From: Gammaproteobacteria bacterium
Lineage (GTDB): Bacteria > Pseudomonadota > Gammaproteobacteria > Pseudomonadales > Azotimanducaceae
Reading direction: 5' to 3'
NCBI GenBank assembly: GCA_030123805.1
Contig: JASJXV010000008.1
Location: forward strand, 1 to 49,711
Length of the DNA stretch: 49,711 nucleotides
The position numbers and the translations under genes were made by a program. The notes under the pieces were generated by a model. The model was not told where the DNA came from and ran no database searches. It saw nothing but the letters and a program-made list of their open reading frames with translations. The stretch's first letter is position 1, and every line of letters starts with the position of its first letter. Shown here in pieces: positions 45,183 to 49,711 of this stretch.

Positions 45183-45267
45183 AGGGGTCAAGTCTTGATA
45201 TAATACCTTTACGCGGTAATAAATCAGATGCATAATGCATAAAGTATCATATCAAGACTTGACCCCT
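45183..45267. repeat. Hairpin-forming inverted repeat
   Basis: Left arm AGGGGTCAAGTCTTGATAT (45183-45201) and right arm ATATCAAGACTTGACCCCT (45249-45267) are exact reverse complements over 19 bp, and the pairing continues with one mismatch for about five more bases. The centre is 47 bp of AT-rich sequence. No open frame. GGGGTCAAG-type palindromes of this kind are, from memory, common near REP-associated Y1 transposases, but none is present here. Confidence 0.8.
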
Positions 45268-45391: not shown

Positions 45392-45463
45392 AAAATAAAT
45401 CTGCCCCCTTTCCCAAATAAATCTGTCCCCTTTTCCAAAATAAATCTGTCCCCTTTTCCCTTT
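45392..45463. repeat. Short tandem array of an AAATAAATCTGTCCCCTTTT-type unit
   Basis: Three head-to-tail copies of a unit of about 22 bp: the first with CTGCCCCC, the next two with CTGTCCCC, each preceded by AAATAAAT and followed by TTTCC. The array ends just after the stop of the molybdoenzyme beta gene. The same unit is, from memory, widespread next to REP-type elements in gammaproteobacteria. It may act as a boundary or terminator, which is inference. Confidence 0.8.
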
Positions 45464-45479: not shown

Positions 45480-46514
45480 TTATACAGAAACTGGATCCTT
45501 GCTGAAGGGTCCCAGCAGTTCGTGCCACTGATAGGCGACGAGGGTGTCAATAATTTCTGAAGACCCCCCCGCTCGCACACTGGCAATTTCCCTTTTCAGG
45601 GTATTAAGGGCGTCGTGCACAGCCGGACCGAACAGCGATTCCAGATATTCCGGTGGAATGCGTGGCACATCGTTTTGGAATGACATGTCCTCGTTAAGAC
45701 GGTCAGCAGAAAGTGGCGGCACATAGAAGACGTTGGGACCGGTACCGTATTCGCCATGCAGCGGTAAGGCCACTTTCCATTCACGTATCAGCCGGTGAAT
45801 GGCTCCGCCTTCGTCATCGCGCCAGCCGATGAATAGAGCACGACCCGGACACTGGCGCACACACGATGGTGCGACACCCGCTTCTATGCGGGGATAACAG
45901 CCGATGCACTGCTGAGCCACATGCCGCTGGTAGTTGAAATAGATCTTCTTATAGGGACACGCTTCCATACAGAACCGAGCACCAGAGCAGACCTCTTCAT
46001 CCCGCAGCACGATGCCATCGTCACGTTTGTAGATAGCGCCCACAGGGCAAGCTTCCTGGCAAACCGGTCGTGAACAGTGGTTACACATACGCGGCAGATA
46101 GAAATGGTAGGAGTTGGGCCACTCCCCTGCCCCTTGATCTTCATCCCAATTCATGGCCCAACGATTTTTTCGAGGGGCCTGGGGTTCCAGAAACTCCTTA
46201 CCGGCGTTGCCGCCATAGAGGACTTCCTTGAAGTTGAATTCCCAGGCACCACCAAACTCCTCGCGGGTGGGTTGATGACCGGGGCGAGGTTCCTGGGTCT
46301 GCGGATCAATACCACCGCCCATCTGCTCCCAGCTCTTCGGTGTGCCTTCTCCCGGTTGCGTGTTAACAGAGCGCCACCATTGGTGCTCTTCGCCCTCTTC
46401 CCGGGTCCACAATACTTTGCATGCCACCGAGCAGGTTTGACATCCCAGGCACTTATTGAGATCGATCACCCAGGCAAGTTGCCTGTTCGAGTCGCTGTTT
46501 GTTGCCCTGGTCAT
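45480..46514 (-). CDS. Molybdoenzyme beta subunit, four-cluster ferredoxin (type II DMSO reductase family)
   Basis: A 344-residue iron-sulfur electron-transfer subunit with four cysteine groups: CLGCQTCSVACK near residue 23; MCNHCSRPVCQEACPVGAIY; CSGARFCMEACPYKKIYF; and CIGCYPRIEAGVAPSCVRQC, P. Length and layout match the beta subunits of ethylbenzene, dimethylsulfide, selenate and related dehydrogenases (about 325-352 residues) rather than NarH (about 510). It carries electrons from the alpha subunit onwards. The start overlaps the alpha stop by four bases. No gamma (haem b) gene follows; the operon ends in the tandem repeat. Confidence 0.9.
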   Translation of the reverse strand: MTRATNSDSNRQLAWVIDLNKCLGCQTCSVACKVLWTREEGEEHQWWRSVNTQPGEGTPKSWEQMGGGIDPQTQEPRPGHQPTREEFGGAWEFNFKEVLYGGNAGKEFLEPQAPRKNRWAMNWDEDQGAGEWPNSYHFYLPRMCNHCSRPVCQEACPVGAIYKRDDGIVLRDEEVCSGARFCMEACPYKKIYFNYQRHVAQQCIGCYPRIEAGVAPSCVRQCPGRALFIGWRDDEGGAIHRLIREWKVALPLHGEYGTGPNVFYVPPLSADRLNEDMSFQNDVPRIPPEYLESLFGPAVHDALNTLKREIASVRAGGSSEIIDTLVAYQWHELLGPFSKDPVSV

Positions 46515-49324
46515 GTTACTCCCTCCTCATCCGCTTTCTCGTAGTCGACCCGAATACCACGATCAAAAAAGGTCGGCTGCCATTGCACCGGCCAATAGCG
46601 TAAATGGCCATAGCCACCCGCCAGATGCAGCCACTTCACCATTCCCGGCTCCAGGTCCATGGGTCCGCGCCAACCCCTGAACTGATATGGCTCCCAGCCG
46701 TTGTAAACGATAACCTGTCCTGGTCGCACCCAGGGTGCTATTTTCACCCGGACAAAGAAGGATCCCAAATCGTTGAATACACGAACTTCATCGTCATCGG
46801 CAACCAGTTTACTCAAGGCATCCCGGTTGTTGATCACCATGTGGGGTTGTCCGCGATGGGTGTCCAGCATGGTTCGATTGGTGATATTCATGGAGTGGAT
46901 GCTCCAGCGATTGTGTCCACTGGTCATCTCGAAGGGGTAATCTCCACCCATCTTGGGGTTGGGTTTGTGAACCGGCAGTTCCTCCTTACCCTCCAGAAAC
47001 CATTCGTGATCGATATAGAACTGGGCGCGTCGAGAGAAGGTTGGATAGGGTAGCTTGTCATCGACGTGCCAACGCAGGGACTGGAAGGGGCGTTTCTCGA
47101 CATCAACATCGGATGCCTGATTGAGGGAGTAGGGAAAGGTGTCCTCAGCGCCACCGTCGGTAATATTCGCCATACCTGTTTCGCGAAGCGTATTAAGGTT
47201 GGTGCCTTCTTCAACAACCCCGGTCAAGACTGAGTCTCTGACCCACTCATCCACCAGATCGTCCTCTTTTTCAAGGCCAAGGGTGTAGCGATAATGGAGA
47301 TTCTCGAGGCTTCTCTCGCGGCCCGTGGCATCCTTATATGTGGTTAAATTACGCTGCCTGGCTCTTTCCTCCAGCTTCTTGGCCAGCATGCTGAAGATCT
47401 CCCATTCCGGTTTGGAATTGCCCAGAGGAGAAACTGCCCGGTCGGAGAAGGTGAGACGGTGGAGCATCGGTTCGGCAAAGTGAAAACTCATCTTTTCGTA
47501 GTGCTGGGCAGCAGGCAGGATATAGTCGGCCCACATACCGGTCGTGTTGATGCGCCAGTCCACCTGGATAATCATCTTCAGCTTTGGCCACAGATGCTTC
47601 AGCAGCATGTTCTGACCACCACGTACCCGGCGCAGCATATTGCCACCTACTTCGATCAACACCTGAGGGGTCGTTTCCGGGGCTGGTCGACTGACCCCTT
47701 TCCACCAACCCTTTTCCATCGCTTCATTGAAATACTCATCGAAGCTGCGCACCATGGTCGGATCACCCCATTCGGGATTATTCCAGTTTTCCTTGTAGCC
47801 GAAGTGGTAGTAAAACAGGTTTGTTATGGGGACCATGCCACCTAATCCTGCGCTAACAGCCTGGTGCACCGCTTCGATCGCAGCCATCTCGCGAGTGAGG
47901 GAGGGATCCGCTTCCATTATTGGTTTGAGACCATCCTTCTGGGCCTCCACTACGCGGTGTGCTTCCTCGATACCGGCCCGTTGCTTGGCGGCGAAAATAC
48001 CAGGTCCCGGAAAGTTCGGTGGTGACCAGCTGCCCATACCGGTACCGGTTCTGCCCCAGTTGCCGGTGAGTGCCAACAACAATAGCATGGCGCGCTCGAT
48101 TAAATCGCCATGGTAGAACTTGCAGAGGTTCATTCCCCTGCCTATGGTGGTTCTACGGGTTGCCACCTTGCGTGCGATGGTTGTTATCACGTCCGGATTG
48201 ACGCCACTTATCTCGCCACCCAGTTCGGGCGTATAATCAGCATCCAGCATGGCGCGCAATTTCGTGAAAACCGGTATCACTTCAACTTTTGACCCATCCA
48301 GCAAGGTGACGGTGGCACTGCCATCGAGCACCGGGTCGATCTCACCCAGAGCCAGGGTTTCACGCGGCGCCTTGACTACCAGCTTGCTGTTGCCGTCCAG
48401 GAAGTAAAGTTGATCATCGAGGCCATCTCGCTCCATATCGCTGCCACGCAGGTAACGGTTGTTGTCACGGCGAACCAGCAGGGGCAAATCGGTCTGATCC
48501 TTGATGAAAGCCGCATCGTAGTTGCCATCCTGCATAATGACCTGACACATTGCCAGGGCCAACGCACCGTCTGTGCCTATCTTTACCGGTATATACTTGT
48601 CGGCATGGACATGTGAAGGGCTGCAATCAGGACCGATAAGGATCTCCTCCGTGCCTGTATAGCGAGCTTCACTGCGGAAATGGTAATTGGGGATGCTGGT
48701 ATAGACTGGATTGGAATGCCAGATCAGACTTAATTGCCCCCGAAACCGCGACTCAGGACTGATGCTGGGATTGAACTTACCCCAGGTAAGGTACTGTCCT
48801 TGTTGAAAGTCATTGATGACACCATTGACGTCGGTATGTAAACCACCCAGCATTCCCGATATCAATCGGGTGCAGGGCCACTGAGCCGTGGTGCCACCTT
48901 CAGCAGGAGTCGCCTCGTGAATAATGGAATCGGGCCCCTCGGACTCGATCGCATCCAGCAATGCGTCGGCTATCTCGGTCAGTGCCTGGTCCCAGCTTAC
49001 CGCTTGCCACTTCCCCTCACCACGCTCCCCGGCACGTTTCAATGGCTCGGTGACGCGATCTTCACCATAGAGAGTTTTGCTCCATCCAGCACCTTTCTGA
49101 CAACCCATCGGGTTGCGGTCGGGTATATCAGGATAGATGGCGGGGATGGTGCCAGATGACTCTTCCCAGATTACTTTGTCATCTTTCGAGTAGACGCGGT
49201 AAGGACAGTTGCCGGGGAAGCAATCCACGCAATGGGAGCCCCAGGCGACAGCATCCCACTGCCATCTCTTTCGGTAGTTTTCTTCAGTAACTGCACCCAG
49301 GCGTCGCTTGCTGGTTTCGTCCAT
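46511..49324 (-). CDS. Molybdoenzyme alpha subunit, type II DMSO reductase family
   Basis: A 937-residue molybdopterin enzyme. The FS0 cluster site is H-x3-C-x4-C (His31, Cys35, Cys40) with a fourth ligand in NPMGCQKGAG (Cys75); the histidine marks type II enzymes. Asp172, in NDFQQGQYLTWG, lines up with the Mo-ligating Asp of NarG by spacing to the TWG motif. GTDGALALAMCQVI and NTTGMWADYILPAAQHYEKM are conserved. Relatives include ethylbenzene, steroid C25, dimethylsulfide dehydrogenases and selenate or chlorate reductases; the substrate cannot be read. There is no twin-arginine leader, and no in-frame start upstream to supply one. GAGGAG lies nine bases before ATG 49324. Confidence 0.9.
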   Translation of the reverse strand: MDETSKRRLGAVTEENYRKRWQWDAVAWGSHCVDCFPGNCPYRVYSKDDKVIWEESSGTIPAIYPDIPDRNPMGCQKGAGWSKTLYGEDRVTEPLKRAGERGEGKWQAVSWDQALTEIADALLDAIESEGPDSIIHEATPAEGGTTAQWPCTRLISGMLGGLHTDVNGVINDFQQGQYLTWGKFNPSISPESRFRGQLSLIWHSNPVYTSIPNYHFRSEARYTGTEEILIGPDCSPSHVHADKYIPVKIGTDGALALAMCQVIMQDGNYDAAFIKDQTDLPLLVRRDNNRYLRGSDMERDGLDDQLYFLDGNSKLVVKAPRETLALGEIDPVLDGSATVTLLDGSKVEVIPVFTKLRAMLDADYTPELGGEISGVNPDVITTIARKVATRRTTIGRGMNLCKFYHGDLIERAMLLLLALTGNWGRTGTGMGSWSPPNFPGPGIFAAKQRAGIEEAHRVVEAQKDGLKPIMEADPSLTREMAAIEAVHQAVSAGLGGMVPITNLFYYHFGYKENWNNPEWGDPTMVRSFDEYFNEAMEKGWWKGVSRPAPETTPQVLIEVGGNMLRRVRGGQNMLLKHLWPKLKMIIQVDWRINTTGMWADYILPAAQHYEKMSFHFAEPMLHRLTFSDRAVSPLGNSKPEWEIFSMLAKKLEERARQRNLTTYKDATGRERSLENLHYRYTLGLEKEDDLVDEWVRDSVLTGVVEEGTNLNTLRETGMANITDGGAEDTFPYSLNQASDVDVEKRPFQSLRWHVDDKLPYPTFSRRAQFYIDHEWFLEGKEELPVHKPNPKMGGDYPFEMTSGHNRWSIHSMNITNRTMLDTHRGQPHMVINNRDALSKLVADDDEVRVFNDLGSFFVRVKIAPWVRPGQVIVYNGWEPYQFRGWRGPMDLEPGMVKWLHLAGGYGHLRYWPVQWQPTFFDRGIRVDYEKADEEGVT

Positions 49325-49711
49325 GCCATTTCGCTCCTCTTGTTGAAGGCGATCAGGGTGCGAAATAGAAATCTACTTCCGATTGCCAAGCAGGCTAATC
49401 CCACCTGCATATGCTGTCAAGCAGGAGTCGGTTGGAACCGAATGGTTTTTTAGATCTAAAATACTGGAGTCGCTCCTGCCACACACCCGGTAGACGAGGC
49501 ATGGCTGAAACCAATTTCCGATATATTGACATTGGTTCTCGTTAGCAATCACTTGGACCTTCGATAACGTGACTACGTAGTGTTTTCCGTCGAGCACAAT
49601 AAACGATTAGCAGCTTTTTAAAATTTGTCTCTTGATACTGTCAGCTATCACTGCTATCCAAATAGGGTGATGGGATTGCAGGTGGTGAGACAAAAAAAGT
49701 GGGTGTTTAAA
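49325..49711. other. Right-edge region, no gene seen
   Basis: 387 bp upstream of the molybdoenzyme operon with no supported coding frame. It contains a distant 8-bp inverted pair, TTTGTCTC (49624-49631) and GAGACAAA (49687-49694). The operon promoter should lie here, but no convincing -35/-10 pair was found. Confidence 0.4.

Follow-up and report, generated by a model that had tools for sequence, protein, structure and literature searches.

The locus

The DNA analysed here, referred to as the window, is a 49,711-nucleotide stretch from a Gammaproteobacteria bacterium of the Azotimanducaceae (GenBank assembly GCA_030123805.1, contig JASJXV010000008.1). It represents one entire contig (C251) of a 252-contig, 3.49-Mb assembly. 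Two minus-strand genes at its right end form an alpha–beta pair that is, by its sequence, a molybdenum enzyme of the type II dimethyl sulfoxide (DMSO) reductase family, in the group of ethylbenzene dehydrogenase (EbDH) and steroid C25 dehydrogenase (S25DH). The alpha subunit carries no twin-arginine translocation (Tat) leader and belongs to a leaderless branch of this group that is large and uncharacterised. The locus comprises:

45393–45460, no strand: tandem repeat of three 23-bp copies directly 3′ of the beta gene (repeat search)
45480–46514, minus strand: beta subunit, a four-cluster ferredoxin-like protein (open reading frame list, PDB, cysteine conservation)
46511–49324, minus strand: alpha subunit, the catalytic protein with molybdenum bis(molybdopterin guanine dinucleotide) (Mo-bis-MGD), without Tat leader (open reading frame list, PDB, fold model)
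49325–49711, no strand: stretch 5′ of alpha to the contig end, with no leader in any frame and no gamma or delta frame (open reading frames, motif scan)

The alpha subunit has 937 residues, its start codon and length verified in the reading frame, and the beta subunit has 344. The beta start and the alpha stop share 4 bp (46511–46514), in agreement with a first-pass annotation of the window that had given these coordinates, the ATG at 49324 and a directly adjoining beta gene. That annotation also noted a repeat array next, and the tandem repeat is accompanied by an inverted repeat of 27 bp (45183–45267, loop of 31 bp) left of beta. The inverted repeat may resemble remnants of small mobile elements, although its origin is a guess. 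No gamma or delta gene lies left of beta, where the repeats stand instead. The annotated lack of these genes holds at the locus and fails for the genome, which has gamma-like and delta-like genes on other contigs. Rfam gives no match between 43000 and 49711, and no promoter-like site was found 5′ of alpha between 49300 and 49711.

Pfam detects Molybdopterin and Molydop_binding domains on alpha and 4Fe-4S domains on beta. The top PDB sequence matches are the EbDH subunits 2ivf_A for alpha (727 bits) and 2ivf_B for beta (401 bits), with perchlorate reductase ranking second for both. The family models TIGR03479 and TIGR03478 cover alpha and beta at full length with 834.9 and 453.9 bits, below their curated cut-offs of 984.75 and 480.7. 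The NCBIfam equivalog models for EbdA and for the EbDH beta subunit score 752.8 bits (cut-off 2000) and 402.4 bits (cut-off 740), and the NarG profile yields 209 of a required 1084 bits. The structure prediction proposed in the first-pass annotation was carried out for the alpha subunit, giving a model with a mean pLDDT of 87.6 from a 39-row alignment (below 50 for residues 1–13). Foldseek places EbDH as the nearest solved structure, the model fitting 2ivf_A with TM scores of 0.94/0.96 and an rmsd of 1.9 Å.

The missing leader and the leaderless clade

The alpha reading frame continues for only 16 codons 5′ of the ATG (ISISHPDRLQQEERNG) before a stop, and the motif RRx[FLIVMWY] is absent from every frame of the 387 bp between the alpha start and the contig end. 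Because of this early closure and the motif-free upstream stretch, neither a missed start nor a single frameshift conceals a leader, and both were ruled out. Alpha does have an RR at residues 7–8 (SKRRLGAV), but no hydrophobic stretch comes after it. These checks bear out the leaderless alpha of the first-pass annotation and the trait is common to its whole clade.

Relatives were collected by scanning named genomes, which gave 399 matching stretches and 380 confirmed relatives; the 80 best of these, at 74 loci, were retained. A look for named relatives among plasmid records gave five records, and those of Ideonella and Alicycliphilus bear named chlorate reductases. The alpha tree holds 153 rows, comprising 131 labelled leaderless, 21 labelled Tat (15 by rule, four added by hand, EbdA and PcrA from knowledge) and one NarG. 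Alphas shorter than 800 residues were excluded, as were the short-coverage rows L115_1 (leader present) and L098_1340, and leader columns were kept outside this tree and the second tree described below.

The first-pass annotation had suggested such a tree, and it places the window alpha in a clade of 120 leaderless rows with support 100 and no row labelled Tat. The rows represent 119 distinct sequences, with L046 and L128 being identical and both counted. The N-terminus is readable in 118 members, L092_3 and L110_3 being cut before it, and none passes the Tat rule. Six rows have a loose RR motif 5′ without a following hydrophobic stretch by the rule and these were judged spurious; in L090 the frame closes only five residues ahead of the motif. 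A Tat leader in close homologs, which would point to an error at the locus, was not seen in the eight-row clade immediately around the window alpha, where two rows have an RR motif, only 5′ of the likely start and with no hydrophobic stretch. By NCBI ranks the 120 rows comprise 66 Chloroflexota, 14 Myxococcota, 13 Pseudomonadota, 6 Actinomycetota and 5 Acidobacteriota, the remainder being unassigned.

The sister of this clade is a set of six Tat-bearing Chloroflexota alphas (support 95), followed by the EbdA clade. Over the whole tree the leaderless label requires five changes, with L054, L091_1 (cut), L137 and the group of an alpha on source-genome contig C49 likewise without a leader. A 57-row mixture-model tree again recovers a single leaderless clade, of 32 rows with SH-aLRT 100; over this whole tree the label changes twice, once at that clade and once at the C49 group. 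The Tat leader was probably lost once in this branch. The second, separate leaderless group has eight rows, among them L043:3720-6728, L052:1495-4359 and L066:2946-5786.

The nearest relatives of the window alpha, mostly from Chloroflexota, share 57–62% identity with it, closer than the leaderless paralogs of its own genome (47–51%), which suggests horizontal transfer. The wider alpha class, with or without leader, is found in 4 of 58 relatives at E 1e-100 and in 5 of 369 genomes of the taxonomic class at 1e-120, the source genome being counted in both.

Active-site and cluster residues

The alpha subunit carries the following positions, assigned by alignment to EbdA:

49100–49234, minus strand: FS0 ligands His31, Cys35, Cys40 and Cys75 (EbdA H82, C86, C92, C127)
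48905–48907, minus strand: Pro140, where EbdA has His192
48809–48811, minus strand: Asp172, counterpart of EbdA Asp223, the molybdenum ligand
48119–48121, minus strand: Lys402, counterpart of EbdA Lys450

Beta subunits of the type II DMSO reductase family bind three 4Fe clusters and one 3Fe cluster. The residues characteristic of the family are all present, with D172, H31, C35, C40 and C75 in alpha and all 15 cluster cysteine columns in beta. The cysteine set is the same in 70 of 71 beta rows, the exception (L116, cut) lacking the first four. The FS0 histidine and three cysteines are retained in 118–120 of the 120 leaderless alphas, both misses being rows cut at a contig start. The aspartate at the EbdA-223 position, which we take to be the molybdenum ligand, is present in 120/120 leaderless and 21/21 Tat alphas, and the lysine at position 450 in 120/120 leaderless alphas. 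Histidine at EbdA position 192 occurs in 0/120 leaderless alphas versus 6/6 in the EbdA clade. S25DH also has no active-site histidine (PMC6153880, the source of the Lys450 number as well). The first-pass annotation had allowed a hydrocarbon, a sterol or a sulfur compound as substrate. The placement beside EbdA and the loss of His192 as in S25DH tentatively favour C–H oxidation over a sulfur compound.

Subunit genes in the source genome and elsewhere

Searching the source genome with the alpha sequence gives 12 places at E ≤1e-100, or probably about 11 genes once contig-edge fragments are considered, and the beta query finds five genes at E <1e-100. Eight of the alphas, including that of the window, fall inside the leaderless clade and the C49 alpha falls in the second leaderless group. 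The alpha on contig C94, the only Tat alpha seen in this genome, has a clear leader and is accompanied by beta, gamma and delta genes of its own. The delta chaperone model TIGR03482 gives four matches at E ≤1e-31 and a weaker one, none above the cut-off. The gamma model PF09459 (EB_dh) has 12 matches; those beside alphas on C94 and C49 are above the cut-off and that on C13 is below it. Contigs C164 and C156 carry two more, NarG-sized alphas (open frames of 1209 and 1181 residues), and the one on C156 adjoins EB_dh, chaperone and beta-like matches and may possibly be a nitrate or nitrite enzyme.

An excess of alphas is also seen in eleven genomes chosen because they held loci, with 124 matches to alpha (E 1e-80, counting fragments and alphas of every kind) versus 40 to beta (E 1e-60) and up to 27 alphas per genome. 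Runs of genes with leaderless alphas consist of alpha alone in 42 cases, alpha–beta in 11 (including the window) and beta–alpha in 10, with gamma or delta genes in a minority; some of the loci counted overlap, and some of the runs are truncated at a contig end. In the eight-row clade of the window alpha, beta is adjacent in seven and gamma or delta in none, with little upstream sequence present in L057, L058, L061 and the window. Because the alphas have multiplied and many stand alone, their beta, gamma and delta subunits are probably shared among paralogs from unlinked genes. Dependence on unlinked genes, one option of the first-pass annotation, is very likely, given the delta-like genes and the gammas beside alphas on C13, C49 and C94. 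For Sterolibacterium denitrificans it has been proposed that several alphas use common beta and gamma subunits (PMC6016249).

Two further protein groups occur at the relatives' loci. A MobB–FmdE fusion with a weak zinc-finger match lies beside beta and delta genes (L074:1727-2854; group in four loci). A protein of about 470–500 residues starts inside the final codons of a leaderless alpha (L047:4242-5654, L078:18140-19630; group in seven loci), with no match in NCBIfam for either copy, in Pfam for the L078 copy or in PDB for the L047 copy.

Loss of putative haem ligands in the gamma subunit

Twelve haem-type gammas, EbdC and ClrC among them, share a methionine column (12/12) and a lysine column (11/11 rows with a residue there). 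The ligand numbers Met101 and Lys141 for EbdC disagree with its sequence, and the columns were taken from conservation instead. In EbDH a methionine and a lysine bind the haem b (PMC8840923, without residue numbers) and the two columns are the putative axial ligands.

Neither column is conserved in ten gammas beside leaderless alphas. Counted by run, both residues are kept in 0/15 gammas of leaderless-only runs (12 have neither, two the methionine only, one the lysine only) and in 13/15 of Tat-only runs, the other two being cut. With the duplicates L048/L151, L051/L149 and ClrC/L136 counted once, methionine and lysine are present in 12/12 distinct Tat-only gammas whose sequence covers the two sites. 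The difference between 0/15 and 12/12 has a Fisher probability of 6e-8, for rows that are related by descent. Both residues are also kept in 3/3 gammas of the second leaderless alpha group and in 7/7 from runs without an alpha; mixed or partly unplaced runs have both in 4/7, the methionine only in one and neither in two. On the gamma tree the label 'neither' needs four changes, at least three of them forced by starred branches (L093 and L127_5014 are identical in the kept columns).

The gamma on contig C13 lacks the methionine and the lysine. It matches 2ivf_C at E 3e-13, and its fold model (pLDDT 91.2) fits that structure with a TM score of 0.85. From alignment and model, the gamma fold appears to be kept though the haem b ligands appear to be gone in much of the leaderless branch.

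Proposed mechanism and alternatives

Known members of the group hydroxylate their substrates with water at Mo(VI)=O (PMC6153880, PMC8840923, PMC10799449). The literature consulted assigns the characterised EbDH, S25DH, steroid C26 dehydrogenase (S26DH) and p-cymene enzymes to the periplasm, with EbdA, S25dA and CmdA given as periplasmic in PMC10100899. In EbDH and S25DH the electrons leave above +200 mV through a high-potential haem b, probably to cytochrome c (PMC8840923, PMC10799449). With neither leader nor haem ligands, the electron exit must differ from that of the known members. The enzyme is probably intracellular and releases its electrons by another route. We favour, with somewhat better than even confidence, a cytoplasmic branch of the EbDH/S25DH group that has lost its leader, hydroxylates C–H bonds, shares its subunits and has changed its electron exit.

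In this scheme Mo-bis-MGD in alpha would oxidise the C–H bond of a hydrophobic substrate with oxygen from water, and the electrons would run from FS0 to FS4 via beta. Unlinked genes common to many alphas would supply the beta and gamma subunits and the delta chaperone. The electrons would exit at FS4, or via an acceptor docked there, and not through a high-potential haem to periplasmic cytochrome c; gamma, where present, would be a haem-free adaptor of a cytoplasmic complex. Cholesterol degradation alternates between periplasm and cytoplasm (PMC7411048), an alternation that cytoplasmic hydroxylation would avoid. A bolder version is conceivable, with a chance somewhat short of even: a second, haem-independent branch of oxygen-free C–H hydroxylation in the cytoplasm. 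In it, the many exchangeable alphas of one genome would connect to a small common stock of beta(gamma) wires, hydroxylate compounds that occur solely inside the cell, for example coenzyme A (CoA)-bound or already hydroxylated intermediates, and deliver electrons to a cytoplasmic acceptor with a lower potential than cytochrome c. Clustering of neighbouring genes finds groups represented by an acyl-CoA dehydrogenase and by an MFS transporter in 10 of 83 loci each, by an AMP ligase in six and by a thiolase in four; several other groups resembling antisense frames were ignored. These counts have no background control and are not taken as evidence for a substrate. The aerobic steroid marker KshA_C was not found in the source genome, a weak negative since the control genomes also all fall below the cut-off.

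Export by another route or on a Tat-bearing partner would leave the same chemistry in the periplasm. Enzyme subunits of such complexes can hitchhike on a Tat-bearing subunit, and some leaderless alphas do share a beta with a Tat alpha within one run (two runs A0-B-AT, two runs A0-G-B-AT). Hitchhiking is described in PMC3578206. However, the carrier is normally the alpha, the sole Tat alpha seen in the source genome has its own beta, gamma and delta, and the loss of the gamma methionine and lysine recurs next to leaderless alphas, so that export is unlikely here. The enzyme might instead run in reverse, as a cytoplasmic reductase that takes oxygen, in a hydroxyl or another group, off a hydrophobic substrate with electrons from a low-potential donor. 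For an enzyme without the high-potential haem, ferredoxin-type donors would be at hand in the cytoplasm, where C–H oxidation above +200 mV would have no obvious acceptor, but the nearest structure is a hydroxylase, the active-site ligands are retained and we know of no reductase in the EbDH/S25DH group, making this direction quite improbable. It is very unlikely that the pair is of a fully known kind, dehydrogenating steroids at C25, p-cymene or alkanes at C2, with a leader that went unnoticed or that metagenome assembly dropped. S. denitrificans does have an excess of alpha genes over beta and gamma genes (PMC6016249), and Chloroflexota genes of the class are termed ahyA or cmdA homologs (PMC6472368, PMC13170169); against this stand the readable N-termini of the clade, none of them with a Tat leader and the six loose motifs spurious, the Tat signals that S25DH and S26DH do carry (PMC7411048) and the absence of S[LF]GKKGC, the motif at the AhyA primer site, from all 153 alphas. 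The suggestion in the first-pass annotation that the enzyme faces inward like NarGH found no support: a NarI-like partner did not come to light, though no search was aimed at one.

Several observations weigh against the favoured cytoplasmic, haem-independent hydroxylase. The window locus itself has no gamma, the contig ending 387 bp 5′ of alpha. Locus L065, with leaderless alphas and one unplaced alpha, keeps a haem-type gamma with methionine and lysine, and a single beta between leaderless and Tat alphas, as in the A0-G-B-AT runs, fits poorly with clean compartments. PF09459 matches also occur on source contigs C235, C156, C220, C44 and C108. The haem-type gamma set was chosen after the methionine had been seen, which leaves the lysine column and the run-wise count as the independent evidence, and the two columns are read as haem ligands from conservation plus PMC8840923. 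In the mixture-model tree the leaderless clade, its sister and the EbdA clade have no settled branching order, and S25dA, CmdA and AhyA are set beside the leaderless clade by their published descriptions. The gene neighbourhood hints, loosely, at CoA-linked catabolism.

Oxygen-free alkyl hydroxylation is the anoxic route of attack on sterols and alkylbenzenes, and probably on alkanes too. The existence of a large leaderless branch that for the most part has no haem ligands raises the question of where its electrons go and which substrate it would hydroxylate in the cytoplasm. Such enzymes can be sought by sequence rules, namely no RR leader, a gamma that has lost its methionine and lysine, and an absent His192. 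Metagenome labels such as ahyA and ebdA may hide different biochemistry. No description of a leaderless or haem-free branch of the EbDH/S25DH group was found in the accessible parts of the literature, mainly open-access. In PMC6472368 and PMC13170169 a term search turned up neither periplasm nor cytoplasm, and in PMC13170169 neither Tat nor heme.

Comparison with known systems

EbdABC of Aromatoleum aromaticum (PDB 2IVF) shares with the window enzyme the alpha fold (TM 0.94), the molybdenum aspartate, Lys450, the FS0 ligands and the beta cluster set. The EbdC fold (2ivf_C) is shared by gamma among the relatives of the window enzyme (TM 0.85). In contrast to EbdABC, the window enzyme has no Tat leader, no His192 and no linked gamma or delta gene, and the gammas of its relatives are without the conserved methionine and lysine.

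The steroid C25/C26 dehydrogenases of S. denitrificans likewise have no active-site histidine, and their alpha genes outnumber those for beta and gamma (PMC6153880, PMC6016249). They carry a Tat signal and are placed in the periplasm (PMC7411048), whereas the window enzyme is leaderless, a comparison made by description. A Sterolibacterium-like S25dA was sought through the family and order of one genome (G318; 7 and 8 genomes), with at most two matches in any group, and was not reached. The alkane C2-methylene hydroxylase AhyABC of Desulfococcus oleovorans is of the EbDH ortholog class and has Chloroflexota metagenome homologs (PMC6472368, PMC13170169). At the position of the AhyA motif, translated from the primer, the window alpha has NWGRTGTG; GKKG is present in 51 of the 153 alphas and the full motif in none.

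NarGHI is a leaderless type II enzyme whose alpha and beta subunits are cytoplasmic. The window enzyme shares with it the leaderless type II alpha. NarGHI differs in an alpha that is about 300 residues longer and in a membrane haem gamma, and the folds match with TM scores of 0.74–0.77 by query length.

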